A DNA stretch of 64,000 nt, taken from assembly GCA_034670405.1 (NCBI GenBank), contig JAXDDX010000004.1:7105001-7169000 (forward strand), read 5' to 3'. Under the pieces are notes generated by a model. It saw nothing but the letters and a program-made list of their open reading frames with translations. It had not been told where the DNA came from and did no database searches. This document shows positions 20,993-64,000 of the stretch, piece after piece. The stretch is from Hoplostethus atlanticus. Lineage: Eukaryota > Chordata > Actinopteri > Trachichthyiformes > Trachichthyidae. Numbering within the stretch: position 1 is the stretch's first letter; the number at the start of each line of letters is the position of its first letter. Made by a program: the position numbers and the translations under genes.

Positions 20993-24038
<3,046 letters not shown>

Positions 24039-24526
24039 CCTGCTTGGAGTTGTAATTTGAGCTGTCTGGGATTATCATGCAGTTAATCTCAATGCAAGTA
24101 CCAATGTGAGTCCAGATTTTTCCATCTAAAGTCATTTTCATTTGGTACTGATGGATGGAAGTTCTCCTTAAGAGTACAATTCACTGCAGGACTGGAGAAA
24201 AATGAAAATTACTGAAGCCATGATGTGAGCTTCCATGTTAAACTAAGCATGACATTGCACACGCGTACATGCTACTTGTCACCAGAAAACCTATTAACTT
24301 ATGTGTCAAACCACACTTAATGTACATGTTTGTTTCCATGAAGTGATGGTCTGGGCTGGACTGCTGCTATGATTACGATTATTACGATGATTATTATGAT
24401 TAAATCTGAGGAAAAACTGTATAATGCAGAATCTGCTTAATGACACAGCTACACATCTGTTTCGGAAAACATGGGCTAAAAGGGAAGTCTTAGATCTACT
24501 TAGACCAATAACTTCACAACTTTCTT

Positions 24527-24540
24527 ATTAAACAATTAAA
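24527..24540 (+). terminator. wars1 polyadenylation signals (two ATTAAA)
   Basis: Two ATTAAA hexamers (24527-24532 and 24535-24540) lie about 490 bp after the wars1 stop, followed by a T-rich stretch. This is a plausible 3' end; other signals were not excluded. Confidence 0.5.
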
Positions 24541-24675
24541 GCTCTTCTGTATATATTTTTTTCTTCAACACCGCATAAATGTGTCTGTAAAGTTCATGGT
24601 AATACTTTCACACCACATTTGCAGTTCAATTCATTAGGTACCCTGCCCAATTCTTCCTAAAACAACATGTACCTT

Positions 24676-25420
24676 GTCATGTATGTATTCTTGCTGGAGG
24701 ATGACGATCAGCTGGAGAAGATCAGACAGGATGAGAGGGGGAGCAACTGCAAAAGGAAAGAGGTTAGAAGAAGGGAGGAAAACACAAAAGGGAAGAATGA
24801 GATGGAATGAAAATAACATTCAAAGAAAAGTGTCAATTCATCTCCATTCTTGTCCTCTTTGTGCTGTGAATCAGAACAATAACTGCCACTGTCAAAGTTC
24901 TTGTAAATGTCCTACCAAGCAGATTCTTTGAAGAGTTGTGGTTTCTTTAGAAATTTCTGGCTTCTATGTGCGGTTTTCTTTCTTCTCTCTCTGATTATCC
25001 ACCCCTCTCTGTATTCTCTCCCTTTCTGTCTGTCTCTGTTCTGCTCCTCCCTTCTCCTGCTCACTCCTATTACATTACATTACATTAGTCAATCATTTAG
25101 CAGACGCTTTTATCCAAAGTGACTTACAAAGGTGAGTCCTATCTCTTCTCTCTAGGACTACACTAGTGGAGCTCTGCTAACTGGCACTGAAAAAGATTTT
25201 GATTGAGAGTGAGTTCATGGCCCCCAACTTCTGGGCTGTGTGTGGGTCTATTTTCTAGATACAGATGAAACCTAATCCCATGCCAGAAAACAGTCTACAA
25301 ATAGCATTAAGTCAGAGGAAAACAGCCTATGCAGAATCTGTTGAATGATGAACACAGCCTCACGATTCCCTAAGAATGGGCTAAGAAGTGAGAGGTTTTA
25401 TTGAATTTCTGCTTAGATTA
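24676..25420 (+). pseudogene. decayed tandem copy of wars1 exons 9-10 and 3'UTR
   Basis: 24680-24730 reads MYVFLLEDDDQLEKIRQ, a copy of the end of wars1 exon 9 ([18 protein letters not shown]) with one codon lost. The donor after CAG is destroyed (GATGAG instead of GTGGGG). At 25143-25205 the splice acceptor and start of exon 10 recur (CTCTCTAGGACTACAC), then the frame breaks after TSGALLTG. Matches continue patchily into the 3'UTR, including AGAGGAAAACAG, TGCAGAATCTG and ATGGGCTAAAAG-like words that parallel 24405-24500. The middle of the last exon is deleted. The intron between the two pseudo-exons has gained a repeat (25069-25140). This is a partial, non-functional duplication. Confidence 0.85.
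25069..25140 (+). repeat. dispersed fish repeat inserted in the wars1 pseudo-intron
   Basis: The segment begins with ATTACATTACATTACATTA and carries the TTTAGCAGACGCTTTTATCC word and GTGACTTACA, a combination very common in fish genomes. The functional wars1 intron lacks it at the same point (CTCACTCCT joins directly to pyrimidine tract), so it inserted after the duplication. Confidence 0.75.
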
Positions 25421-41118: not shown

Positions 41119-44100
41119 CTAGCTGTTCTTCCTTGCTATGGATGTGTTCATGAGGAAGGAGTCACAGGAGTAGCGCAGGCAGCGGTAGATCCCCTCGGCT
41201 CTGGAACGACTCATACACCCTCCCTTCTGTATGGCTTCAATGGAGCTGCAGGGGGAGGAAGAGGAGGAGGAGAGGACAATCTCTATATACATGTTTCTTT
41301 ACAGATTTTCTTTCGGGCTACATCATCAGCAACAGAGCTGAACTGATGCTTGGTGTGAACGTGGCCTAAAACATTTATTTTACCTGTTTATGAAGTGAGC
41401 CATGGACCTGAAGTTGTGGCTCATGTTGAGGGCATGGGCATGGTTGACGGAGCGCAGGGTTAAGTAGAACTGCAGTGCCTGCTGCCTGTGCTGCCCTTTG
41501 ACCTCCAGGGGTACAGCAATGCCCTGACCTTTCCGCCGCTCCAGCTGTGCCAGATCTGCCAGCAAGGTGGCAGTCTCTTCAGGGCCATCGCTCCACAGCA
41601 GACGCACCCCTGTACGCACCAGCGCAGCCACCGTGCTGTCATAGTAACGTGTTCGCTGGAACGGACGTGACGCCTCACCTGGGACAGCATGACAAGGACA
41701 TATCACTCACAATATACACAAATTACTTTATTCACTCAACATTTGTGTACTAAAATACATGATGGTATGGTTTAACATCACTAACATCTGAATTATTAAT
41801 GTTATACTTATTAAGCATGAATTAGTTATTGAGAGGAACTCATCACATCCATTATGTTATCTGTACCCATGAAATATGTACCTGTATTCACACTTTCCAC
41901 ACCAGCAAGCAAAAACCCATCAAATAAATACCATCAAAGTGTACAGCAGCAGACCCACACATAACAGTTCCTCAACATCAGGAGGCTGACCTGGCTTGGT
42001 GCGGTCCTTCTCCACGACCAGGCAGACACGCTCAAACAGGTCCTGCAAGCTGTTCACCCTCTCGGCCAATCGCTTCCTGTTCTGCATTGCGGCCAAATCT
42101 GATTGGCTGTGCCTCTCGACTGCCATGCGGTTACTGACGATGAAGTAGCTACCGTCCAGCGAGCAGACATGGACGGTGGCGGCGTGGCGCTGGCGCAGGC
42201 TGGTCACCACCTCAACTCCGCTACTGATGCAACGACTATCCACCAAAATAGAAACAGGCCCAGATGGAGCAGGGGCCTCGCCTATAGACGAAGCCTGTCC
42301 AACGGCCCTCTGAGGCTGATGCATTGAGGAGGAGGAGGAGGAGGAGGAAGGGGGTACCTGGAAAAAGCAAAATGCACATATGTGAATAATGTGAGTTTAG
42401 TAAAACAACTGACACAATATCCCATGCACCTACAAAATACCTCTTATTTTTGTAGACAGTGTATGACCCTCGGCAGACCCTATGTCTTATCTTGTTTCCT
42501 ATTACCTGTGGTGGTTTCCTGGAGGCTAACAGGGACTCTGACTCCTCAAAGTCCAGCTCATCAGACAGCAGAGCCTGGTTTTGTAACCTCTGGTAACACC
42601 TGCAAAAGAGAGTAAACAATGCACTAGTTGATGAGCGTGTGTGTGTGCACGCACATGTGTGTGTGCACAAACGTGTGTGTACATTTTGTTACCTGTCCTT
42701 TTGCTCGTCCACTTTTGCCGATTCTTTCTGCCCCCTACTCAGTAATGAGACCTTGGCTGCTATGGTGTAAGAGGAGGAGGAGGAGGGAGCTTTCTGCTGA
42801 TGTGGAGGCTTGTTGGGTGCCAAGTCCTGCTGTATGACCTTTGGCCTGAAGGGGACAGCAACATCCCCCTCAGTCCTCACACTGCTCTCTTTAACAGCTT
42901 CCTCTGTCTCCTCCTCACTAGAATCCTTCATGCGTATGATTCGGGAGGGCTTGGTTTTCACCCCAGCCTTATGTTGGGGAGCGCTCTGTTCTGTCGGGGA
43001 TTCGGCCCCGGTCCTGGCCCCAGCTCCGGCTTTTGCCCTGGTTTTGCGTAGAAAAATTCTGCGTCTGGTGGCGTACTGCTTCCTCCCATCCACATACGAG
43101 TCCTCAGGGATAAGGTCAATGGCATCTTCTTCAACCTCTTCCTCGCTGCTCCCAAGCTCCTCCACCTCACTGCCCACCACAAAGCTGTCCTCTGCATATG
43201 TTTCATCCATCTCGGGCACCTGGGAACAAAAGGGATTTTCATGTTACTGAAATCATTTATAAATACACAGAGTTGAAAACAAAATGAATCAGGCAAAATT
43301 AGCTCTGAAGGGCTTTTCCATGTTCAGCGAAGCGAAGAGTAACACCGAGAATAAATGATACATCGTTCTGTGTACCTGGGAGAAGATGTCCATGTTGTGG
43401 TGTTTTTTGTAGACCATTTTGAACTTGCCAGCAACTGCAGGACTTCTCACAGACTTCAGGTACACCACCTGCATCTCTGAGTCTGGTAGAGAGAGGAACA
43501 GACAGGAAGTCAAAGTGTGACCGTCATGGCAGGATGAAATACTTCAATCCTTCAATCCCTACATCAGTTAACTACATTTAAATCTAATGCATTAAAGTGT
43601 AAGATAAATCAACCGTTACAGTATGCAATGTTAGGATGGGGTAGTAGGATGAGTTCCATAGATAATCAATGGCTCTGAATATAATGCACAGCTCATGGAT
43701 GCATAAGAGGTAATGGGTGTTGGTGAGGAGGATACCGGTCTGGTAAACTCGTGTTAAATGACCCAACTCTTGGTATAAGCTGCGTGTTGTACCATTGAGT
43801 CCCTGGGAGAGGTGTGTGTTGTCCACCACAAAGCCTTCCAGAGACTGGTTCTGGTCTTCCCCATCCTCTTCATCAGATGACACCTCCGCCCCCTCCTCCT
43901 CTGACAGATCTGCTTCCTCATCCAGGAAGTGACGCCCCCCTCGGCATATGGCACGCTGACAAAGGAACAATGGAAAATGTCAACGAATAGCGATGCGTTG
44001 ACAAGGTATCCACGCAACTGACAGATTTATAAAAACCTGACATTTTCACATAAGCAGGAAGGTGTCATTTGAGAGTGGGCATCCTATAGTGCCCTACAAA

Positions 44101-48683: not shown

Positions 48684-51600
48684 CTGTGTGTGTTAACCAC
48701 TCAGATCAGGGACACAGGAAGTGAGATACGGTAGCAGTGAACCTTTATAGGAGCTGTAGAACATGATGTACTGGGAACTCTTTTTGTGTTTGCAAACAAA
48801 GACATATGTAATGTAAACATTCAACCATCCCCTTCAACATCCACAAAAGCACTAGTGCTTACAAATTCAGGAACTGCATCTTATGGTTTCAGGTTATTAG
48901 CAAATAAAAGCATAATGAACAACAACACAGCACCTATTCTTTCTCACCTTATACACTCGCTGAACAACATTATCCTTGAAAAACAGAATCAAAGCTTGGA
49001 CTGTTTACCTTCAACACTCACAGGCATCTCTTTTCTCCACACACTTTTTTTTATTGAAAAATGAGAAATAAAACCTGCTTTGCACAAGATTAACACCCCC
49101 TGGCAGACAACTAATTAATGACCGGATGAAGTCTTTACATTGGACATGTCAGAGACTGAAATACACTTGACTAGGAGGACAGAGTGGTGCAGAGGCTGGA
49201 GGGGTCATAGGGTTTGTGTTGGTTAGATTGCACGAGGGAGGGGCAGCAATGAGTGGAAACTCATCTCCTCTCGTATTTTCTTCAAATTATGTCCTATTTG
49301 GCTTCGCTCCTCTTTTCTTCACGTTTTTTTTCTAGGTCATTATGGCATATCCTGGCTTTATGTAACAGTTATGTGAAAATGGAGAGTGATATTATTGATG
49401 TTTTCCCAGTCGAAACAACATGAAAGGATGACCCAGAAACAGCCAGTCAGATGAAAATGGATTATTATTCCCAAAGCCGTAATTACACCACGGCGGCTGT
49501 TTATCAGGCCAGTTATTTGCCTTCCAGTCCCAAAGGATAGATGTGGCAAATCACTGTGACCCAAATCACCACTGTATGGTCACATGCAACTCAGTTGACT
49601 CCTTTCAGCCCATTTTCTTGGTAGTTGAGTGTAAAAATAAATTTTCCATTTCCTAAATGCAGCTGGCATTTTCATTTTTTGTGAGACTGCCAGTGTATGC
49701 AACATCCAAACATTAAAACCGCCTCAACCACTTGTTAACTTTGTAGCCTATGGGTATATTGGGTATATTGTGATTCATCAAGACCAAGCAGGAATTAATA
49801 TTTGGTGGGGACTCACAAATTCCCTAGACACTGAGGTGGGTATACGGCCTATACACGCGACTTCACAAATGTCCTGTTCTCACCTCATTTTCCTCTCTCA
49901 AACGGTCTATGAGCTCCATCACCTTGATGAAGTGGTGGCAGCGGAGGGAATGGTCCACAGAATGGGTAGGCAGCACTCTGTTCTGCCAGTGTCTCCATTC
50001 CCACAGAGACAGCTCTCTGGATGGTGGGACACTTTTGGAAACCTCCTCCTTTGCATCATCAAATGACAAATTGACACAAGGAACAAATAACATGACATTA
50101 GAGCAAGGAACAAAACAAAGAAAAGAAGGAAAATACAAGATAAGGAAAGAAGGAAGGAAGGAAAGAAAGACGAAAGAAAGATTGCTGCTGATAGTTGAAA
50201 GGTGCTGTTGAATTAATTTATGTGTCTTGGCCAAATGGTTACCTGTATCAAGATCTCTGGAATAGCCATGATGTCGGCTGTTGAAATAAGCTGTCAACTT
50301 TGCAAGAGTAATACAAATTTAAAAACAACGAGTGTTATTGCAAGGTTGACCTAATGGTGGCACTGTAAAAATGATGCCTCTCTTCCTGTTTGCACATCTT
50401 CGCCGCCAACTTAATCTGTGTGTCACAGTCAAAAATTTCAAAGGTCGAATAGTGTAATAGCTTTGATCCTGCAACTATTCTATTTTTATTATTTCAATAT
50501 AACAAAATAAAATTTGGTTCACAGAATCAACCACAGTAAATAATCTGGTCTGATAGATAGATAGATAGATAGATAGATAGACAGATAGATAGATAGATAG
50601 ATAGATAGACAGATAGACAGACAGGAAGAAAGAAAGGTACTTACAAGAAAGAAGAGTGGGAGGGAACAGTTTACCTGAGGTGGCAGGTCACTGGGTAAGG
50701 ACAGGAAGTGTGATTGTCTCAGGGTTGGATGAGCCTCATCTTCCTCCAGTCGCATGGTGGACGCCCACAGGGAATACTCTGTGGGGCTCAGAAACCCATC
50801 CGACTTCACACTGCCCCGCTGGACTACTACAATGCATATACGCATACACACACACACACACACATACGCAGAAACATGCCCAGTTTATGACACAGTTAGT
50901 GAAACCAGAATCTTGCAACGTCCCTCCTTTGCACAGTAACAAGTAAAAGTTACCCCTGTCTAACCACTTACGCAGGTTTTGAGGGTGGATGAGTGAACCC
51001 CGTCCCTCGATGTGGGACCGTCGACCTCTGACGGACCGTCTGCTGTTCTCCCGGTGGTCAAACTGGCCACAGGTAATGTGCATCTTGTGCAGGCTGGGGT
51101 TCACCCCCTCGGGCAGCATGCGGGGACTGTTGGGGTTCATGTGGAAGCTGCTCTTGTTGCCGGTGATTGACTTGTACAAACTGCGCTTGTTGCTCTGGCT
51201 CTGGTTGTAGATCTGAGAGAGAAAAAAAAAGATGTATGTCATTTGTCAGAACTGTTTGGGGTCAGCTGACTTTGAACTTGACTGTTAAATGACTGTAATG
51301 TAATAAAAGCATTGACTATACAGCATATTGTCATGAGGATATTTGGAGCTGTATAATACATCTCTTTGGATGAGGTTCTAACATATTACCATTTATTACA
51401 TACGCATTTCTGCCGTAATTCCTGATGCTTTTCTTGACCTACATCCCTGGCAAACACTCACCCTCTCCTCGCGCCCCTCAGCCAGGATGACAACGATGCG
51501 TCCCTGCCGCTTACGCCCAGTGCGGCCCATTCGCTGCACCAGGCGGATGGGACTCTTCTGAGCATCGAAGCAAACGATGAGGTCCACCTCTCCGATGTCC

Positions 51601-54116
51601 AGCCCCTCCTCCCCGACACAGGTCGAAACCAGAGTGTTGAAGCCTCCCTGGCGGAACTGACGCACCACCTAGAGAAGAAGTGAACAGCGTAAATAAAACT
51701 TTAAATGCAGACTTCTCTCTGTAAGCTGCTCTTGATAAGAAAATTCACAAAATGCCAAAATATCAATGTCCATATTAACATCATATGTTTTTTTTTATAT
51801 TGTTAATTATATGCTACTATTGTAAAGATGTCTGATAAATTGAGGCATATCTACCTCCAGCTGTTCCTTCTGGGTGAATCCTTTAACCCCTTTCCCTTGC
51901 TGACGTTTGGCCCATAAAAGTCATGACCTTGATCAGCGGTGCATGGCAGTTCAACATGGCCGCAATCTCCTGTATGCTCTCGCGAAATGATGAAAAGATC
52001 ATCACACGCGTGTTTACTTCCTGAGGTCTACTGACAGGCGGCAGGTCCTGACCCTAGAAATCAATGGGACAGAAGAGAGAGAGAGAGACTGGTGAAATCA
52101 TTGTGAGGAAATTCCTTGAGCAAATGGTAGCTTTTTTTTCAGGGTGTTTTGTTTAATTCAGATCCTGGAACACTTCGTACTGTGGTTAAGTGGATATGTT
52201 AAGTGTAAACAAACCCTGATCAAAATGAATCTTGGTCTCTGGTCCCAAGTTGATTTACGAGCAATAAATGTTATAAATACACTTTGTTCTGTCTTTGTCT
52301 GGACAGGTGCTTCCAAAATCTGTACAGTAAACTATTATCCTGAAACAGTGGACAGAAAAACCGTACTTAACCTCTTTTGCAGTTCCACTGTGTCGTTCAT
52401 GCCATGGTGTAAACACCAAGCTCAGAATAACCACTCTAAGTGGATGAGCCACAGCAAAGAACTGCTGTAATAAGCAAATCACCATTGTCGCGGGCGGAGC
52501 TCTCAGCCCACAGTCTGAAGTGCTGCAGCACCACCTCCTCCAGTTTCTGCAGTTTGGGATGACTGTAAATGAATGGCTCATCTGGACCTAGAAGTATTAA
52601 TGGTAGAGGATGTTAGTCAAGCAGGGGCTGTGAATTGATTCACAGCTTTGTTTTAAAGCACTTTTTTATCAAACAGAGGGTTTGTTTAGGGTTTGTGTAG
52701 TTATGCACCAGAGGGTACATATTATATAATATAGATAGATATTGCATATATATATTATATGGTATGAATGAGTGTTTTAGCACCAGCAGATGGCTTCAGA
52801 AAAATTGCTTCCATCTCCTGGTAAAGGTCCATGAAGGTAGGAGTCCTCTGCAGCTCATTCCTTGCCCTGGACATCTCTGACCATACACACAGAAACAAGC
52901 AATCATAAGAGAGTGATCACATCAAACATTTGTTTTTCAATTCAAACACAGAATATTACTGGCTGAGTGTGATGGAGGACTTGGGGTATGATAGGGCCTG
53001 TTTTCTGTATTCTACATTCAGGAGAAAGGTAGAGAATTTGTAGGAATTGGAAAGATACACACTTAAGGAAAGTGTTCCCTGTTACAGCCTAGCCAGCTGC
53101 GTGGATGAAGATGGTGGAATCAGTCAGGAATGCACTAAAAGCCTGGAGGTGAGGTAGCCTACCTCTGGATCCGTCCATGATGCCCTGGATGTAAAAGAAC
53201 AGCGACCGGAGCCCCATCTGAATCAGTAGTTCGTAGCCATGGTACAGGCTGATGCAAAGGGCAAAGTCCCCCTCCAACATTCCCTGCTGTGGACCCTGGA
53301 GACGACATGTTGCTGGACATGAACCAAGGTGGATTCAGACCCACTATAGTGTCTCACAAAACTTGGAGATATGGAAAATGACATTAAAGGCCAGGGAATC
53401 ACTACTGGGACCAGTTTTCATATGTGTTGATTGTACCAACTCTATGTAAGCAATAGATAGTGATAGATACATAGACAGATAGGACCAAGCCAAACTCTGT
53501 GTACAGTGAGACAACTGGTTATGATCACTGACTATGCATGATTTTGATGATGGTGAATCTACTTGCCAAATAAAAGTGAAACTGCTCACATACATATGTG
53601 AATGTGTAAACACATGCAGTTGCAACAGCCACACGATAAGACACATCATGACACCACACAGTGCTCTCTAGAATTGTTGGTACCATTGGTAACAATCTGA
53701 TAAAAAGGCTGTAAGTAAATCAACTATACAAGTTATTACCTTTATGTTTGTTTTTCTCAAATAATAATGTTAACTTTTTTTAAAATAAAGATCATCACAC
53801 ATTAAAACCAAACCAGTTAATTTTAAAGTTATCGCTCACTGCTTGTGTTATGTATAGAGCCCTTTTGGCTCATCTTTATTGGGGGTGCCAATAATTCTGG
53901 AGGGTTGTGTATCATATCATATAAGATAGTATAGCATACAGTATATCTATATTATCAAAATGCTTCATAGTGTAGAGTATATGCCTTGATGTGTGGTGGC
54001 GGGTTCTTGCGGAACTGTTCCCTGGCTAGGATGAGCTGGTATTTGGTGAGGGTCCGCAGGTCCTTATTGGCCATCGCCCGGTTCTGGACAAGACGAGAGG
54101 TAAACTTCTCCAGCAC
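41119..54116 (-). CDS. fancm: FANCM DNA translocase, 20 exons seen, N-terminal part missing, one exon frame-broken
   Basis: Exons 5' to 3': 53985-54116, 53163-53295, 52784-52876, 52483-52587, 51855-52053, 51462-51668, 50972-51212, 50675-50823, 49884-50048, 45656-47945, 45425-45513, 44750-44818, 44450-44569, 43793-43955, 43376-43482, 42693-43219, 42506-42599, 41991-42357, 41384-41678, 41119-41245; 5672 nt. FANCM remodels stalled forks and anchors the Fanconi core complex. Visible: insert region ([34 protein letters not shown]), helicase motif IV ([11 protein letters not shown]), V ([17 protein letters not shown]), VI ([12 protein letters not shown]), MHF-binding region ([14 protein letters not shown] to [14 protein letters not shown]), the RMI-binding MM2 motif ([19 protein letters not shown], about 46129-46206), an acidic linker, a degenerate ERCC4 nuclease domain ([16 protein letters not shown]) and the C-terminal helix-hairpin-helix. 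The first exon aligns near human residue 330; motifs I-III were not found upstream. Exon 51855-52053 has two surplus bases. Exon 53985-54116 ends at a GC donor. Confidence 0.93.
44849..44894. repeat. AC dinucleotide microsatellite
   Basis: About 23 AC units in a fancm intron, roughly 30 bases upstream (minus strand: preceding) of the exon 44750-44818 acceptor. Confidence 0.95.
47949..47988. repeat. AC microsatellite abutting the acceptor of fancm's largest exon
   Basis: About 20 AC units; on the minus strand this is (GT)n TTGTAG immediately before the first base of the 2290-nt exon at 47945. The usual polypyrimidine tract is replaced by the GT array. Confidence 0.95.
48644..48681. repeat. 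GA dinucleotide microsatellite
   Basis: About 19 GA units in a fancm intron. Confidence 0.95.
50552..50626. repeat. GATA tetranucleotide microsatellite with GACA variants
   Basis: About 18 GATA/GACA units in the fancm intron between exons 49884-50048 and 50675-50823, 50 bases from the latter. Confidence 0.95.
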
Positions 54117-55624
54117 CTGCCAGAGATGGTAACAGAGCAAACAGCTTAGAGATCACAGACATGCAGGCCTACATCAATAACGGGCCATTACCTTAGCTAA
54201 CATCCTGCAGATACAAAGCTGAAAAGTAGTATGTTCTTTTGCCTGCTCTAAAAAAACCTTGTGATCAATGTGTTTTGTGAAATGTGTTTTGTGAAAAGGT
54301 TTTATGAATAGATCTGACTTGTGATACACAGGCATTACGTAGATAGTCTGACAAAGATTGAAAGAGAGTCTTATTTCAACCACAGATACACAATAAAACT
54401 AAAAATGTGTTGAACTCTTTGTCCTCATTTCCTCGTAATAATGGGAAGAGAGTAGGAGGTAGTCTGTCAGCCAGACCAATTTAATGTTAATATCTATTCA
54501 CTACCACAGATTGATGCCACAGTGGGAGGCTGGATCATTACAATTTCCATTTCTTTTATAGGGAACTGCTGCTCTAGAAACAGAAAAGAATAAAGGGCTG
54601 CTCTGGTACCTTTTGTACAGTCGTTGGTGAAAAGATGAGATTGTGTAACAGAGGACAAATAAATGAAATCAAGTACCATGTGCAAAGAAAGCCTATGAGG
54701 TTATTTCTAAATAAACAGAATGTATATAAAGTCCTTTAGATCAATAGTTCCATACTTAATATAATAATAATAATACTATACATATAACACAAAGGCTTAG
54801 CTAGCCATTTCCAACACCCAGACACTCATGAGTGTCTCTAGAACTACAACTGATTGTAATTCAAAATTTGGGGACAGGATAGAAAACATAATTCTGTGGT
54901 TGTGAAAAGAAAATGGAAGCCGTTTCCCTCCCAGGCAGCGACATAAGCTGGTCTCTGCTGAGTCTCTGCCTGCTGCCGTGAGCTGAGGTGAAATGCGATT
55001 ACAGCACCTAACCCTCACCGAGGTTCTGACGACAAAAGCAATGGGTTAAGTAACAACCATTAATTCCACTGGCCTTTCAGCAAACATCAACAGCTATGTC
55101 ACCTAGGCCTAAAAGTGCTCTCCTGCCAGTGAAAGGAGCTCAGTCGTCGCAGCTCTGTCCATCTGGTTAGGATTGTGCCTCATCATATAAAAGGTTTCTA
55201 TTTCAAAATAGTCCACTTTACAATATGTCATAAGATCTGGGTTATTAGGAAATCGTCTGCCAACCAAAGCCTGGTCAAATAACCTGTAACCCTGTTTTAA
55301 TGAGATTAGAAAGAAAGATATTAGTAAAATAATAAAGTTTTTAGGTTCTATGTTAGGTTCTATGCTGTCTGGTGAGAATTTAAGATTTTACTGATTTCTG
55401 AGGATTTCACAACTAGGTCTGACTGACTGACTCCATCTGTGATCTTTTAAAGTCTTGATGAGCCTTGAAGTAATATATGAAGCTCCACATTACAGTGCTT
55501 TCAGATAACAACAACACGATCATAGGCCAGCAGATCTCTCATACAGGTGTAAAGACATCAAGTGACCTTGAGTGAACTTAACTCACCCTCCTAACAGCAA
55601 CTGCCTGCCTGCCTACACATCTTT
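54117..55624. other. sequence upstream of the first visible fancm exon, no exon found
   Basis: The region where the preceding fancm exons would be expected. No minus-strand frame resembling the helicase domain 1 (Walker A GLGKT or DEAH box) was recognised, and no other gene. Confidence 0.45.
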
Positions 55625-56193
55625 CGCTACACAGACAGTGCCCCGTCTTATCTGAACTCGTATTAACCTCACTCCCTTGAACATCATGTCCTAGTTCTAG
55701 GAACATTGATACATGATTTTAGATACATTGTCATTGTGGCGTATGTTATGGAAAATAATAATGTAAGTGTGTTTATAATATGCTTAAAGTATAAACTGCA
55801 ATAATATGTATGCATACGTATAGTCACAGCCAGTGGAAAGCTACTGTATGTTTCCTCTTTTCTCCTGTCCTGGCTGAAAGTTTGAAACAACTGTTGTATC
55901 GTTATGAAAGATGATTTTGCTGAGAAATGTCAAGGACACATCGAAGGTATCGAAGGACAAGTCGTAGGGAGTTGGGGCAGAATGTTCCAATTACGATAGA
56001 AAGTACTCCCTTTTCTGCCAGGTGTCTGTGCACTGCCTTGCTTCTTTGAATCTTCACTTATCTGCCTTGAACTATGTAGAGACAGTTACAGTCACGTGTA
56101 TAAATGTATCTGATGAACTGAATTGCTCATCTCATTCTGCATTCACCCTGGTGTGTGTAGTTTCAGCTCTGCTTGCAAGCATTAAAGACTAAA
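55625..56193. repeat. duplicated segment A, copy 1 (569 bp)
   Basis: This segment starts CGCTACACAGACAG and ends GCATTAAAGACTAAA. It recurs at 56971-57407 with one substitution and one 132-bp deletion. Features such as TATAAA near 56099 and ATTAAA near its end recall a long terminal repeat, but no TG...CA ends, target duplication or internal retroelement genes were found, so the origin is undecided. Confidence 0.9.
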
Positions 56194-56612
56194 GAGACTG
56201 CTTGAGCTGATCATCATCATTGCTTCCTGAGTCTAAAACAACTACGAAGAGACAGTTTTTCCTCTTCAGCCTACAAATTCAGATACGAACAAAATGATGA
56301 ATCAGACTATGTTCGTAGAAACGTTTGTACGATCAAATCTTATCTTACGCACGTTTCGTGAATGAAGCCCACTGAAGAGGTTTGCATGCAGCACACATGC
56401 AAAGCTTAGGTGACATGTTGCTTCACCACAGTTGCCAGGTGAACTGAGAGATGGCATCTGCCTTACGTGGTCTACATCTGTCTCATGGTATGCAGATGAA
56501 GCAGCAAAGGTAACTACAATCATGATAAGTATATGTTGCAATGTATGAATGTATCATGAGCACAATAATAACAATGATACTGTTATTACTACTGCTACCA
56601 TTACTGGTAACG

Positions 56613-56647
<35 letters not shown>
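56613..56647. repeat. ATA trinucleotide repeat
   Basis: About twelve ATA units between duplicated segments A copy 1 and B copy 1. Confidence 0.9.
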
Positions 56648-56781
56648 CTAGCAATAATATAATAGTCTACATGTTTTATCATGCTTGCTGTTATATGTCA
56701 TACTGACTGCAGGCAGTATTTCCACATGTGAGATGGTTAAACTTGCAGCTATACTGGGAGCTAAGGCATCTCTGTATGTTT

Positions 56782-56974
56782 TAGATTTTTAGATTTAATA
56801 GACTTGACACAGTGGAGAGTGACAGGAAAGATGGGAGAGAAGGGGATGCAGCGATGGTCTTGAGCTGGATTTAACACGTTCAGCCAGCCGGGTAACGAGG
56901 ATGACCCTGGCAGCAGAGTTATATCCTCAATTTGTAGTAGCAATTTGTCAAAAGGTTCTGCCATATTTCCCGCT
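56782..56974. repeat. duplicated segment B, copy 1 (193 bp)
   Basis: This segment starts TAGATTTTTAGATTT and ends ATTTCCCGCT. It recurs at 57418-57610 at the same length with two substitutions. Its last four bases, CGCT, are also the first four of segment A copy 2. On the minus strand it carries an open frame around MAEPFDKLLLQIEDITLLPG that I could not assign. Confidence 0.92.
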
Positions 56975-57407
56975 ACACAGACAGTGCCCCGTCTTATCTG
57001 AACTCGTATTAACCTCACTCCCTTGAACATCATGTCCTAGTTCTAGGAACATTGATACATGATTTTAGATACATTGTCATTGTGGCGTATGTTATGGAAA
57101 ATAATAATGTAAGTGTGTTTATAATATGCTTAAAGTATAAACTGCAATAATATGTATGCATACGTATAGTCACAGCCAGTGGAAAGCTACTGTATGTTTC
57201 CTCTTTTCTCCTGTCCTGGCTGAAAGTTTGAAACAACTGTTGTATCGTTATGAAAGATGATTTTGCTGAGAAATGTCAAGGACACATCGAAGGTATCGAA
57301 GGACAAGTCGTAGGGAGTTGGGGCAGAATGTTCCAATTGCTCATCTCATTCTACATTCACCCTGGTGTGTGTAGTTTCAGCTCTGCTTGCAAGCATTAAA
57401 GACTAAA
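56971..57407. repeat. duplicated segment A, copy 2 (437 bp, internally deleted)
   Basis: Identical to copy 1 apart from one G/A difference and loss of the 132 bp corresponding to 55993-56124. The deletion endpoints share the word AATT, pointing to a short-homology deletion. Confidence 0.92.
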
Positions 57408-57433
57408 TCTAAAAATCTAGATTTTTAGATTTA
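57404..57433. repeat. perfect 30-bp palindrome at the A/B junction
   Basis: Centred on CTAG at 57417-57420. The left arm TAAATCTAAAAATCT is the exact reverse complement of the right arm AGATTTTTAGATTTA. The right arm is the normal start of segment B; the left arm is a short inverted copy of it fused to the end of segment A copy 2. Confidence 0.95.
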
Positions 57434-57610
57434 ATAGACTTGACACAGTGGAGAGTGACAGGAAAGATGGGAGAGAAGGGGATGCAGCGATGGTCTTGAG
57501 CTGGATTTAACACGTTCAGCCAGCCGGGTAACGAGGATGACCCTGGCAGCAGAGTTATATCCTCAATTTGTAGGAGCAATTTGTCAAAAAGTTCTGCCAT
57601 ATTTCCCGCT
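57418..57610. repeat. duplicated segment B, copy 2 (193 bp)
   Basis: The same length as copy 1 with two substitutions; it continues into unique sequence (GCTAAAAGCC) after the shared CGCT. Confidence 0.92.
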
Positions 57611-60289
57611 GCTAAAAGCCTGTATATTTCACAGACTCTTTATCACGGATTCATCAAAGTGATAGATTACATTTCCTGTGCTCTGATGAGCAGGATGTAA
57701 AGGCTAGCTGGGTGGACTGCTCCAGAGTTATGTTGATTCCACCCTTTCAGACTCTTCAGGCAAAACAGTGAAAAATGACATACTCATTCCATTTCTCAGT
57801 TCATTAAATCAGTTCCCTCTTTGTTCTTCTGCTGAGCTAGCAGAAATGATCTTATAATTTCACAAACATGACACATATTCTTGCTGTCTTTCTATACACA
57901 ATAAAGATTAACATGGAAATACTGTTGTCAAGTTGCAGTGAGGAATTACCCTGGCAATCAATGTGTGAGGTGATTTTGGCCGATGTCAAGACAGTAGGCT
58001 ATATGCAGCATCATCTGTATGTATGTGAGCCCCATGGCTGTAACTCAATGCATCCCTAAGTGTCTTTATCAGTGTTTGTGCAGTTACTCCATCTTGTAGT
58101 GGCAGATCCAACTGTCTGTGTTACACACACACAAAAGCACACATGCACACGTGGCCAAGGTATTCAGCAGTTACTGGTTCAATGACAGTAGAGGGTCGGG
58201 GAGAGATAACAAACTGCTGGTTAACACTAGCTCAAACAAACACAAAACTTTAGCTTTCAGAATTTATGATTTGTCTGCAAATCATATTCTTTTAAAGATC
58301 TCTGTTAATATTTGATGTTTTTTATATGTTGATGTTGATGTTTCCTGCCACAAAAACTATTCTGCATGTGGCTATAATGTGCACAGAATTACAAAATAAA
58401 TAATTGCTAGGAAGGAAATGTATCAAATGCTTTCAAATGCTTATATACCACTTTAACGAATAACAGAGGACAAGCCCTGCAGCAGCAAGGCCACAAGACC
58501 AAATCTCTATTAAGGTAATTGACAGGAAGACCTGAATGGGGCAACGTGCACCCGATGGTCAGATCCAGATTATGAGATTACAGAGAGACAGATTAGTGGG
58601 GTCGCCTTGTCGTCTGGGTGGAATGTGGAGAGAAGTGTGACAGAATGTGTTTAGGACAACATGCAACCAGCTGATTGGTTGAGGAGCATGGAGCTAGGTG
58701 ATGTAGGCAGCTATTAATAACACAACCTATAGAAATGCACTCAAATGAACCTCATGCACTCATGCATGTCATGAGTGACATCACTGCTTCTAGGATAAGC
58801 AAGAAAAGAGAAAAAGCAACTCCAATGAGTTGTGGAGCATTTGAACCTGTTATATCATAACTGGTGAAACCCAACTGTTTCAGCAAGATTGCTTATTTGA
58901 TTTAGAGGGCTGTCATCCTAAAGTGCAGTACTTTAATCAAAAGGCAATCAATGTCTGGCTATTATGATCTAAACAGGAGGGGACAGACACAGTGAAACAC
59001 ACAACGGTGAGTGTATGAAGTCCTACTGTGTTCTGGGCAGTCTCCACCTCTCTAACATGCTGTGAACTGTATTGAAGAAGGGTACTCTCCATTGAGGTAG
59101 GCAGCCAGGCAGGCGACCTACGAAGAGCACTCCTTGTAGAGTGTGTGTGTGTCTGTATCAGTGTACAGTATGTGTAGGTGTGCTCCTCTGTGTACATTTG
59201 CATGGAGGCTCCACCGCAGACTACAAAGTTTTATATAATCTCCTCTCTACGTGCTAAATGAGGGATGCAGCATGGTGGCTGGCCGGTGCAGCAACATGGG
59301 TCAATATCCAAATCCTGCCTAGCCTGTCTCCGAGCACTCAGGTTCACGTTTATTATTATTATCGCTTGTTGCAAAATCCTGTCGACCAGCATCCACGTCA
59401 AGGGAAATTATTTTTTTTAAATGAACCATTAAGACAAATGGGCAATAACACAGCAGACAAGAAAAGCCTTCTTAAAACACCCTAACCTACAAAACCATTG
59501 ACAGAGCGCATGTTCAAAGAAGGCTTCAATGAAATGAAGTGTATAGTTCTTATAAAATGTATATTTTATGGTGTCTGCTCTCTCTACTACTGCTATACTA
59601 TACCTACAAAGACAGACACACACTCTCCTTCTACATCATTGCTCTGCCCTGTCCTGTTGACAATGCACTCATCAATTCATATAAAGGGTAAGTACAGTGT
59701 GTAAAACATAAATGACTGTCACATAGAACTCAAATGCATCCTATCTTTATTGTTGTGTAAATAGACACTGAATGGCGGGAAATAGATTATTGTCTGGACA
59801 AACCTTTTTATACTGGCACAGGCTAAATTTCTGAAAATTTCACTTGAACTGGATTTGGTTGACAATCACTAATGCAGCAAGTCTACTTCGGAAAGACTGT
59901 TTTAATTCATTCTGCCATAAAAGTACATTTACCAAACTGAACGAGTCTATTCGCTTGGGATGAATTCATGGTTTATAAAGCGGATAATCTGATGTAAAAG
60001 ACAATAAAAACGCACACCTGTGAAATGTGAATGCACTCAAAAAACACTATTCACACTGGAACTCAAGCGTCACTTTAGCTATACTGTTCAATGGCTCTGT
60101 TGTTTGGCAGAAGAACACAGTTTGATTAAAGTTTGACATATTACTTAAGTATATTCTGAAAACCACTGCCTCTTGGCGTATTGCTTGATCAAATGCCTGG
60201 ATTGGCTTTCTCGGGTATTTATTGCCCTGGCTGGAGGAGGGTGGGCCAGCAGGAGACCAGAGTGGCACGTGGTCCGCCTGCCTTTATAA
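57611..60289. other. intergenic region, no gene seen
   Basis: No recognised exon on either strand. There is scattered low-complexity CA/GT sequence near 58120-58150 and 59140-59200. Small open frames lack splice context and known domains. Confidence 0.5.
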
Positions 60290-60623
60290 ACATCGCATTC
60301 ACCATGGCAAGCCTCGCGCTCCGTATAGCACTGACGGACGAAGTTAATAGCGTCATCAAAATACCTAACAAATGTGACTCGTTTTAGTGATGCTTAAATG
60401 CGCCGGGAAAAGCCGCGTCCTGCCTGGTTTGTTGAGCGAGAAGTAGTTACTCTACTAATCCGGACTAACGTTAGACACAGAGTTCCAAAAAAAACAGATT
60501 CGCACCAAGACAAATCGTAAATTTCGGGGACTATTAGTAACTAATTTTAGTAACTGTTTTTAATCAAACGCCGGCATTTGCGACCTATCGCTTCGGTTAG
60601 TTACCAATTCCACAAACATCCTA
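60290..60623 (+). promoter_or_regulatory. putative promoter and 5'UTR of the unidentified plus-strand gene
   Basis: CpG dinucleotides become frequent here (GCGCCGGG, AGCCGCGTCC, CCGGACTAACG) and continue into the first coding exon, unlike the CpG-poor surroundings. A TATA-like CTTTATAAAC lies at 60282-60291. The region could also serve fancm on the opposite strand if its first exons were present, but none was found. Confidence 0.4.
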
Positions 60624-63600
60624 ATGGACCGCGGTGGTTGCCGATTAAATGGCGATGTTAACGGCCACGCGCATGGATCCCGTGCAGGGGTGATCACACT
60701 GGAAGACCTTCAGTCTTTCAACGAAGAACAACCGTTAGACCCGGGCAACGGGGGCCACGAAGGGGAGGGTGAGACGATGGAGGAGGAAGATGAGGATCGA
60801 TTGCTGCACTACTGGCAGGACGTAGCGAGGGGACACCAAGTGGACGTCCCTCAAGGTAAAACAAATATACAGTAGACAAAACATTTAGGGGGTCGACAAC
60901 ACACCGTTAGGTTTTTAATTTGGCGTATACTCCTAAGTAGTTCAGTCAAACATTACTGTGATGACTGCTACACCTTTCAGCAATGGAGCCGTTACAATGG
61001 AGCTTAAGACAGCTCAACATACCATAACAGAACACAATATAGGTGGAAATACAGTATAGCAGAGTGACTGGTCTGTGATCTATCCAAGAGTGTGGACAGG
61101 GAACACAGGGTTGAGCTGCTCAACATCCTTTGACCTGAAAGTCTTGACTATAGCATGGAACTGTCCTTAAGGCAAAGTCTCTCAAAGCATGAAATGTGCA
61201 TACACTCACTTTCTAAAATAGTCTGTACCATCTAATCTGCTATTTGCACTGTATGCTTTTTGGTTAAACACACACTTCTGAGTACAGCGGGAGGTGAATA
61301 GGCTTTATCAGGAAGAAGGTAATGGTAGTTAGGCTAGTACCTTACATTCATTGTAGAACAAATTATTATTACTAATATAACTTTTTTTAAATACAATTCC
61401 TCCACCTCACCTCACTGTAAACTTGGCTCTCATTGGCTGTTGGCAGTCTTCTCTCTTGGATTGAATCTGTGATACCCACACATTTCAGGACCCGCCCAGA
61501 AGACAGGTCATAATATTAAATGTGTTGGATATGATCAGGGCATCTCGAATCGGTGTAGTTAAGACTGAATTTGTGAACTCTTCACACTACCAGATAATCT
61601 GTTCAGATCATCACCTCCGACCAAGCCTCAGATTGGGGATTCCCCTCCTGATTGTCGGGATGTCCAAATATGTTGTTAATCGGCCAGATAATCCTCTGCT
61701 GCTACTGTAGGGTGTGCACACAACCAGAGCATTGTCAGTGAGAAAAATATGGAACTGCAAAAAGATGACTCCGTCAACTTCAATAGTTTGGGAGAAGGCT
61801 GAGATGGAACTACAGAGGCTAACTTGCGGTGTGTTTGGTGGTCCTACAAACGTCAATCGAGCTTCGTCTGACATGCCTCAATGCAATAGATAATAACTGA
61901 ATTTCCATTTTCAGGTGAACTATTCCTTTAAATTTCCTCAGCTCTCGCAGTATAAGCTAGTAACACTGTAAGGACGCCCTTCACAAACCACACACACTCT
62001 AATCCTAGTTCTTTGACTGCTGTAAACAAAGATGATATTGTTACTTGCAATATACTGTATGTTTACAGTGCCTCCTTGCAAAGAGGAACATCTGATACCT
62101 GATATGGATGCAGGCACCACCCAACCTGTACACAAGATGGAATGTCTTGTCCCAAATATGCAGGCCATGATTCTTCAAAGAGAGCACTCTTAAACAACTG
62201 TTGCATTACAACAAGTGATTTGTTTACACTACTGAATACAGAATGACCACCAACAAAGAGGCTTTCTTATGCTCCCTTCCTAATTATTGACATTACAAGT
62301 AGCAGGTACATTAGCACATCAAAGAAACTACTGACAAACTAAGGCCCTAACAGGGCCTAATACTGCCAATAACACAAACCCACTAACTGGCACTTCCTGG
62401 CATGCAGATTTGCTACCACACTAATCTATTGTCACAGTGAGGCATTTGAAAGTGTGTTTGAAGCTGATTGGTTTCAAACAAGTAGCCTACTTTAACCTAC
62501 TTTTTTGCTGACCATGTTTTTCTCAAGAGGAATAGGATTGTTCACAAAATAGGTTAGTCAACACGGCAGGCATTGCATGTACTGGTAGGCACAGACTGCT
62601 TTGGGAGTGCATGTACATGTTTATTATTAAATTATCCTCTAAGAAACGTGGCTTTGGGTTGAACTTAATCAAATCAGCGACCAAACATCCCCTGAACCAC
62701 AATAGTCTACAGTCTTGACAAATTCTAATGACTCTAATGACATGCTGTCCTTTACGGAGCTAGGCTACCCTGTAAAGGATTTATTAGTGGTACAGGTGTA
62801 GTTATAGCTAAAAGATGAGATAAAATAGCTAAAGTATGTGATTGGATCAGTCATAGATATACTACCCTCTCTCGTAAGTATAGATTGGAAACCCCAAGTG
62901 TGTTTGCGTTGACTGTTCTGCGTCAACACTGTGTGTCTTTAGAGGTGCTACTATAGAAACAGATGAATTTGCGTGTGTGTGTGTGGCATGTGTACCTGAC
63001 CATGGACTTGTTTACAGCTGTTTGTTAACTGTTCCACGTTAACTATTTTCAACAGCTAATTGCGTTGTGGCATTGTGTCATTGTACCTTGTATGTTAAAC
63101 AACAAAATTCCATTTTGGTCAGTGCCCTTATATAAAGTCACGGCTAAATAGGACTAAGCTACATTGTTACTACTCAAAAAGCCAGCAGCATTGACAGCCT
63201 GCTGTATTCCCGCCCTGTTAATACCAGTCTATAAGTGGCCTCAGGCAGCTTTAGCCTGTTGTCTCTCTCTCTGCGGCATCTTGGCACAGTGCCCTGCCCG
63301 TCTGCCAGGCCCGTAAAGATCCAGCCTTTTCTCACATAAACTACCAACACCACCTGTCAGCAGATCACTTAACTGGAGGATAGTTTGTGCAGGTTGGAGA
63401 GTGGAGTCTACTAGTGTAGATATAATGTGAATGGAATAAAGTTGGACTGAAGTACATGTATTCTGTGTGTATGGAAACATTGTTTCAGGGTCAGAGATAA
63501 CCATGTAGAACGAGCAGTGTGTAGTAAGACACAGACATGATTGCTTGTACATGCTTTGTGTTCATAGAAGGACAAACACAGCCAAAGTGTACTGGGCTTT

Positions 63601-63858
63601 CAACAAGGATGTTTGGCTGCCAGTGTCCAATACAAACATATCATGGCTTAAGGAAACAAACTTTATGGACAAACAACAAGCACCAGACTATTTGTTTACT
63701 CTTATCATAATCTTGTAAATAATATACTATTTTTGCAACCAAGTATTGTTTGTTTGTTGACAGAGATGGCAGAGCCCATCCAACAGCTAGCCAGCAACAA
63801 CCAGGGACGCAGTAACAGAGAAAACGTCCCTTTCACCCTCATCTCACGCAAAGAGAAG
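60624..63858 (+). CDS. N-terminal two exons of an unidentified acidic protein (runs off the window)
   Basis: Exon 1 60624-60855 and exon 2 63764-63858 are joined by a GT-AG intron in phase 1 with a strong GTAAGT donor after exon 2. The 109 residues start MDRGGCRLNGDVNGHAHG, become acidic (GEGETMEEEDEDRLLHYWQD), and continue VPQEMAEPIQQLASNN, then RENVPFTLISRKEK. No signal peptide, membrane segment or catalytic motif is visible. The start is chosen because it is the first ATG in frame after a CpG-rich leader. I do not recognise the family; the phase agreement, CpG setting and charged, non-repetitive composition make it very likely real. The remaining exons lie beyond position 64000. Confidence 0.75.
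60856..63763 (+). other. first intron of the unidentified gene
   Basis: An intron of 2.9 kb with no recognised exon on either strand, including none of the missing fancm helicase exons on the minus strand. Contents are ordinary AT-rich sequence. Confidence 0.5.
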
Positions 63859-64000
63859 GTAAGTCTGACAGATACTAACAAGATCATAACCATCAAGATC
63901 ATCTTTTTACTCTCAGCCTGGGTTACCCAGTCTGTTTATATTGTTTTCAAGTTCTACATGAAAAGGCAAGACGTGCCAAATCCATAAGCAGCAACCTAGT

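Follow-up and report, generated by a model that had tools for sequence, protein, structure and literature searches.

The DNA analyzed here is a 64,000-nucleotide stretch of a contig from Hoplostethus atlanticus (JAXDDX010000004.1), which we call the window. FANCM is encoded on its minus strand, from approximately 41.9 to 54.1 kb. Fanconi anemia group M chain 9el5_A is matched by 51396-51668 (E 1.2e-37), a stretch in which Pfam also places a Helicase_C domain; an ERCC4 domain lies at 41920-42396, likewise on the minus strand. In a tblastn search with an approximate human FANCM query, the credible exon farthest upstream was located at 53988-54119 (E 1e-10). Residues 1 to 305 of this query gave only scattered matches (E 1.4 or worse) across the whole window, including 54120-64000, and a search for six helicase motif words returned a sole match, DEAH at 50740 on the minus strand, which is downstream of the helicase exons. 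Exons for the N-terminal helicase half of the gene were not found upstream of 53988-54119, nor at better than E 1.4 elsewhere in the window; an intron there may be very long, the gene may be truncated, or the assembly may be wrong.

Two other features of the window are worth recording. Rfam reports a UnaL2 LINE 3′ element at 25087-25140 on the minus strand, and near it, within 23615-25208, BLAST detects two pairs of diverged direct repeats that are 89% and 91% identical. On the plus strand, an open frame at 60564-60875 encodes 103 amino acids and has no Pfam match; judged by eye, it could represent the initial coding exon of a gene on the plus strand.

Two segments, A and B, lie upstream of the minus-strand FANCM exons that were detected, and each is present twice in plus orientation. 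Copy 1 of A (55625-56193) is content-complete and is followed by a 588-bp spacer (56194-56781) and copy 1 of B (56782-56974); we take both of these copies as the source. Copy 2 of A, or A′ (56971-57407), is without 132 bp of copy 1, and copy 2 of B, or B′ (57418-57610), pairs with B copy 1; the spacer has no counterpart in copy 2. The whole gain is 636 bp (56975-57610). Because the N-terminal exons of FANCM were not found, this duplication would sit within a long intron of FANCM or, if the gene is truncated or misassembled, upstream of it. FANCM is a fork-remodeling translocase that acts at replication forks; nothing here connects that role with the duplication.

When the window was compared with itself by BLAST, with matches listed to E 1e-6, the A and B pairs were the three top-scoring repeats, and their E values of 0 to 1.7e-29 mean that they are not due to chance. 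The same comparison showed no third occurrence of either segment anywhere in the 64 kb. The alignment of 55625-55992 with 56971-57338 (A copy 1 versus copy 2) is 100% identical over 368 bp, the rest of A (56121-56193 versus 57335-57407) contains 1 substitution, and B (56782-56974 versus 57418-57610) contains 2 substitutions in 193 bp. Between the copies there are two large skips and no small indels. The first-pass annotation had described segments with these coordinates, in this order in both copies, and had counted one substitution in A and two in B; the self-comparison and the alignment of the copies bear out each of these points.

Four joints, J1 to J4, connect the segments, and each can be read to the base. 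At J1 (56971-56974), the word CGCT is common to the end of B and the start of A and marks a jump back of approximately 1.35 kb; CGCT is also present at 55625-55628 and 57607-57610. J2 (57335-57338) is a forward skip of 132 bp at AATT, and the stretch that copy 2 skips is edged by AATT on the left (55989-55992) and on the right (56121-56124). Both a joint of B copy 1 to A copy 2 through CGCT and a 132-bp deletion in A copy 2 with AATT at its ends had been claimed previously, and we confirm them. J3 (57404-57407) consists of TAAA, which ends A copy 2 and also flanks 56782-56793 on the opposite strand, so that the sequence there passes to the opposite strand of the B start (56797-56794). More than a simple gap separates A′ from B′, a point that the first-pass annotation did not describe: the joint holds a 12-nt insert at 57408-57419 (TCTAAAAATCTA), read on the minus strand, which is the reverse complement of 56782-56793. 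The last two bases of the insert, TA, are common to the insert end and the start of B copy 2 and constitute J4. Within the window, the reverse complement of the insert occurs at two places and no others, 56782 and 57418, where the two B copies begin. Taken alone, the 16-nt inverted match to B copy 1 reaches only E 0.14 in the window by BLAST, and its weight comes from its position exactly at the joint.

We estimated how often such sharing would occur at random joints by pairing random positions in copy 1 and its near flanks. At least 4 shared bases were found at 1.9% of direct and 2.0% of inverted random joints, and at least 2 shared bases at 17%. Three of the four observed joints have 4 bp of microhomology (CGCT, AATT, and TAAA), and J4 shares 2 bp; thus J1, J2, and J3 each share more bases than expected, and J4 is not above chance.

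Together, J3 and J4 produce a perfect palindrome of 30 bp (57404-57433), which is the longest in the window; the runner-up perfect palindrome is 18 bp. Its arm of 15 bases compares with a maximum of 12 in 60 simulated 64-kb sequences, which were first-order and keep the dinucleotide makeup of the window but not its local AT-richness. The fold predicted for 57390-57445 as a single DNA strand is better than those of all 200 shuffled sequences (z −5.37). Simple slippage would not be expected to yield a palindrome of this kind.

On balance, the explanation that we favor, with modest confidence, is one multi-switch replication or repair event of the MMBIR/FoSTeS type, including a short inverted switch, with a gain of 636 bp. 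Synthesis, described from left to right, would first have run through A, the spacer, and B, then, at CGCT, moved back from the end of B to where A begins and copied 364 further bases of A. At AATT it would have jumped forward by 132 bp and continued for 69 further bases to TAAA, where a switch to the opposite strand of the B start would have allowed 12 bases to be copied backwards. At TA it would have switched back, copied B again, and run on into the right flank. The corresponding path (55629-55992, 56125-56193, 56793 to 56782 in reverse on the opposite strand, and 56784-56974) totals 636 bases, exactly as long as the gain, which it rebuilds from copy 1 at 633 of 636 bases. The mismatches, at 57353, 57574, and 57590, are the three substitutions counted between the copies. 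The identities, the joints, the palindrome, and this rebuilding of the gain are direct observations; from them we infer the presence of the arrangement in the animal, a single event, the direction of synthesis, and the kind of enzymes involved. The spacer contains a pure ATA microsatellite of approximately 12 units (56613-56647), which is a possible fork-stalling place. Template switching had been proposed earlier from the order of the segments and their microhomologies, and our data support that proposal, which the 12-nt inverted insert and the perfect palindrome strengthen; the TA shared at J4 is at chance level.

Taken together, the locus is best described as a small duplication of MMBIR/FoSTeS-like type, which adds an example to a known kind of event and is neither a new kind nor a new element. 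As in MMBIR (PMC8421209) and FoSTeS, there are serial jumps at short microhomology, a short inverted templated insert, local templates, and a gain in copy number, and the few-base microhomology typical of such joints is found here as 4 bp at three of four joints; unlike typical cases, the event is small (636 bp), and its history would be that suggested by one assembled sequence. For MMBIR-linked insertions, one study takes as its signature an insert that is inverted, measures at least 10 bp, and has a template no more than 100 bp away, and it counted germline events from 25 bp upward (PMC8421209). The insert here is an inverted copy of 12 nt, a reverse copy both of 56782-56793 and of the start of B copy 2, which it adjoins; at this length it is shorter than the 25-bp germline threshold given there (PMC8421209). 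J3 and J4 also resemble the four-point template switch as outlined in PMC7954356 and PMC8794818, in that the path leaps ahead onto the opposite strand, copies in reverse, and returns, and the perfect inverted repeat of that model is matched by the 30-bp palindrome. By our own assignment, the four points are 56193, 56793, 56782, and 56784. The difference is that the switch here is part of a larger duplication, and the nascent strand could also have served as the template, provided that B copy 1 was freshly synthesized. Deletions from theta-mediated end joining can carry inserts copied from their own flank, and the deletion joint with its flank-copied insert is alike in this respect; unlike the present case, theta-mediated end joining alone gives no tandem gain.

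The copies differ at 3 of 626 compared bases (0.48%, 95% interval 0.10 to 1.40%), which supports the earlier description of the duplication as recent. The duplication would be young if these substitutions postdate the event. Error-prone synthesis may have made substitutions during the event itself, and gene conversion can mask age, either of which could alter this reading. The ancestral state, taken to be copy 1, and the number of events follow from the comparison of the copies by inference.

A stepwise origin would begin with a 1.35-kb tandem duplication of A, spacer, and B joined at CGCT, followed by two deletions in copy 2, one of 132 bp by microhomology and one of 588 bp repaired with a templated inverted insert by polymerase-theta type end joining. 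End joining ordinarily yields joints like those observed here, so that every joint, taken singly, is an ordinary outcome, and a later templated deletion could yield J3 and J4 without a multi-switch event. We nevertheless consider this origin unlikely, given that it needs two large deletions in one copy against only 3 substitutions and no small indel, a combination that is odd for independent decay. For 1350 bp at this divergence, the probability of at least two large deletions is 8e-5, 5e-4, and 2e-3 if the ratio of such deletions to substitutions is set at 0.002, 0.005, and 0.01, respectively. These ratios are assumed values; therefore, the probabilities (8e-5 to 2e-3 under the stepwise origin) favor one event but do not prove it.

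The arrangement could also be an assembly artifact in which two haplotypes were set in series, one contributing A, spacer, and B and the other A′ and B′. In that case, J2 to J4 would belong to a real deletion allele, and the tandem joint J1 alone would be false. The range of ordinary heterozygosity takes in 0.48%, so the difference between the copies is compatible with two haplotypes. The window, which contains 0 N and hence no gap between the copies, speaks against this reading, as does J1, which shares exactly 4 bp, an overlap on which an assembler would probably not have made a join. False duplication, mostly between haplotypes, made up 4 to 16% of sequence in three earlier vertebrate assemblies (PMC9516828). 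The marks of false duplication listed there include gaps between same-scaffold copies and half read depth, and 7 to 24% of false duplications were on the same scaffold (PMC9516828). The locus is like the false heterotype duplications described there in having near-identical adjacent copies in one assembly, and unlike them in having no gap and a clean 4-bp joint (PMC9516828). We regard an artifact as quite unlikely.

If the multi-switch duplication is real, the locus is a small, fully readable example of apparent germline template switching in which each joint is known at single-base resolution. If it is polymorphic, the duplication could be dated, and a single event could be tested against several. 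We suggest, as a tentative and rather doubtful extension, that a small rearrangement made by four switches in a single event in an animal germline is still segregating in or just upstream of FANCM, and that its palindrome and direct repeats form a hotspot for further change. If it is still segregating, an allele series in one population would directly show the steps of germline template switching. The case is also a reminder that near-identical neighboring copies need spanning reads.

That A′ and B′ are a mobile element or a spliced cDNA reinserted beside its source is very improbable: the two skips do resemble excised introns, and the minus strand of B carries an open frame, but splice-site edges were found at neither skip in the placements tried, A and B have no further copies in the 64-kb window, and the gain ends without poly(A) and runs into unique flank. 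Specifically, GT-AG, GC-AG, and AT-AC edges were found in 0 of 5 equivalent placements of the 132-bp skip on both strands, and in none at the spacer edges, for the one placement as drawn, on either strand. We therefore rejected a processed retrocopy with spliced introns, there being no splice-site edges in the placements tried, and likewise a transposon, there being no other copies in the window, in which the sole Rfam match at gathering score is the UnaL2 LINE end at 25087-25140. A search of viral contigs with one exact 26-base word of B gave 0 matches, which says little, since the window's own genome may be outside the scan. Searches with the 67-amino-acid form of the B minus-strand frame gave no match among Pfam families (up to E 1) or PDB sequences (up to E 5), and therefore there is no support for B as a known coding exon. 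Both B copies hold the open minus-strand frame with an ATG, at 57409-57639 and 56761-57036, and when the frame is read by eye, one of the B substitutions is silent and the other changes P to L.
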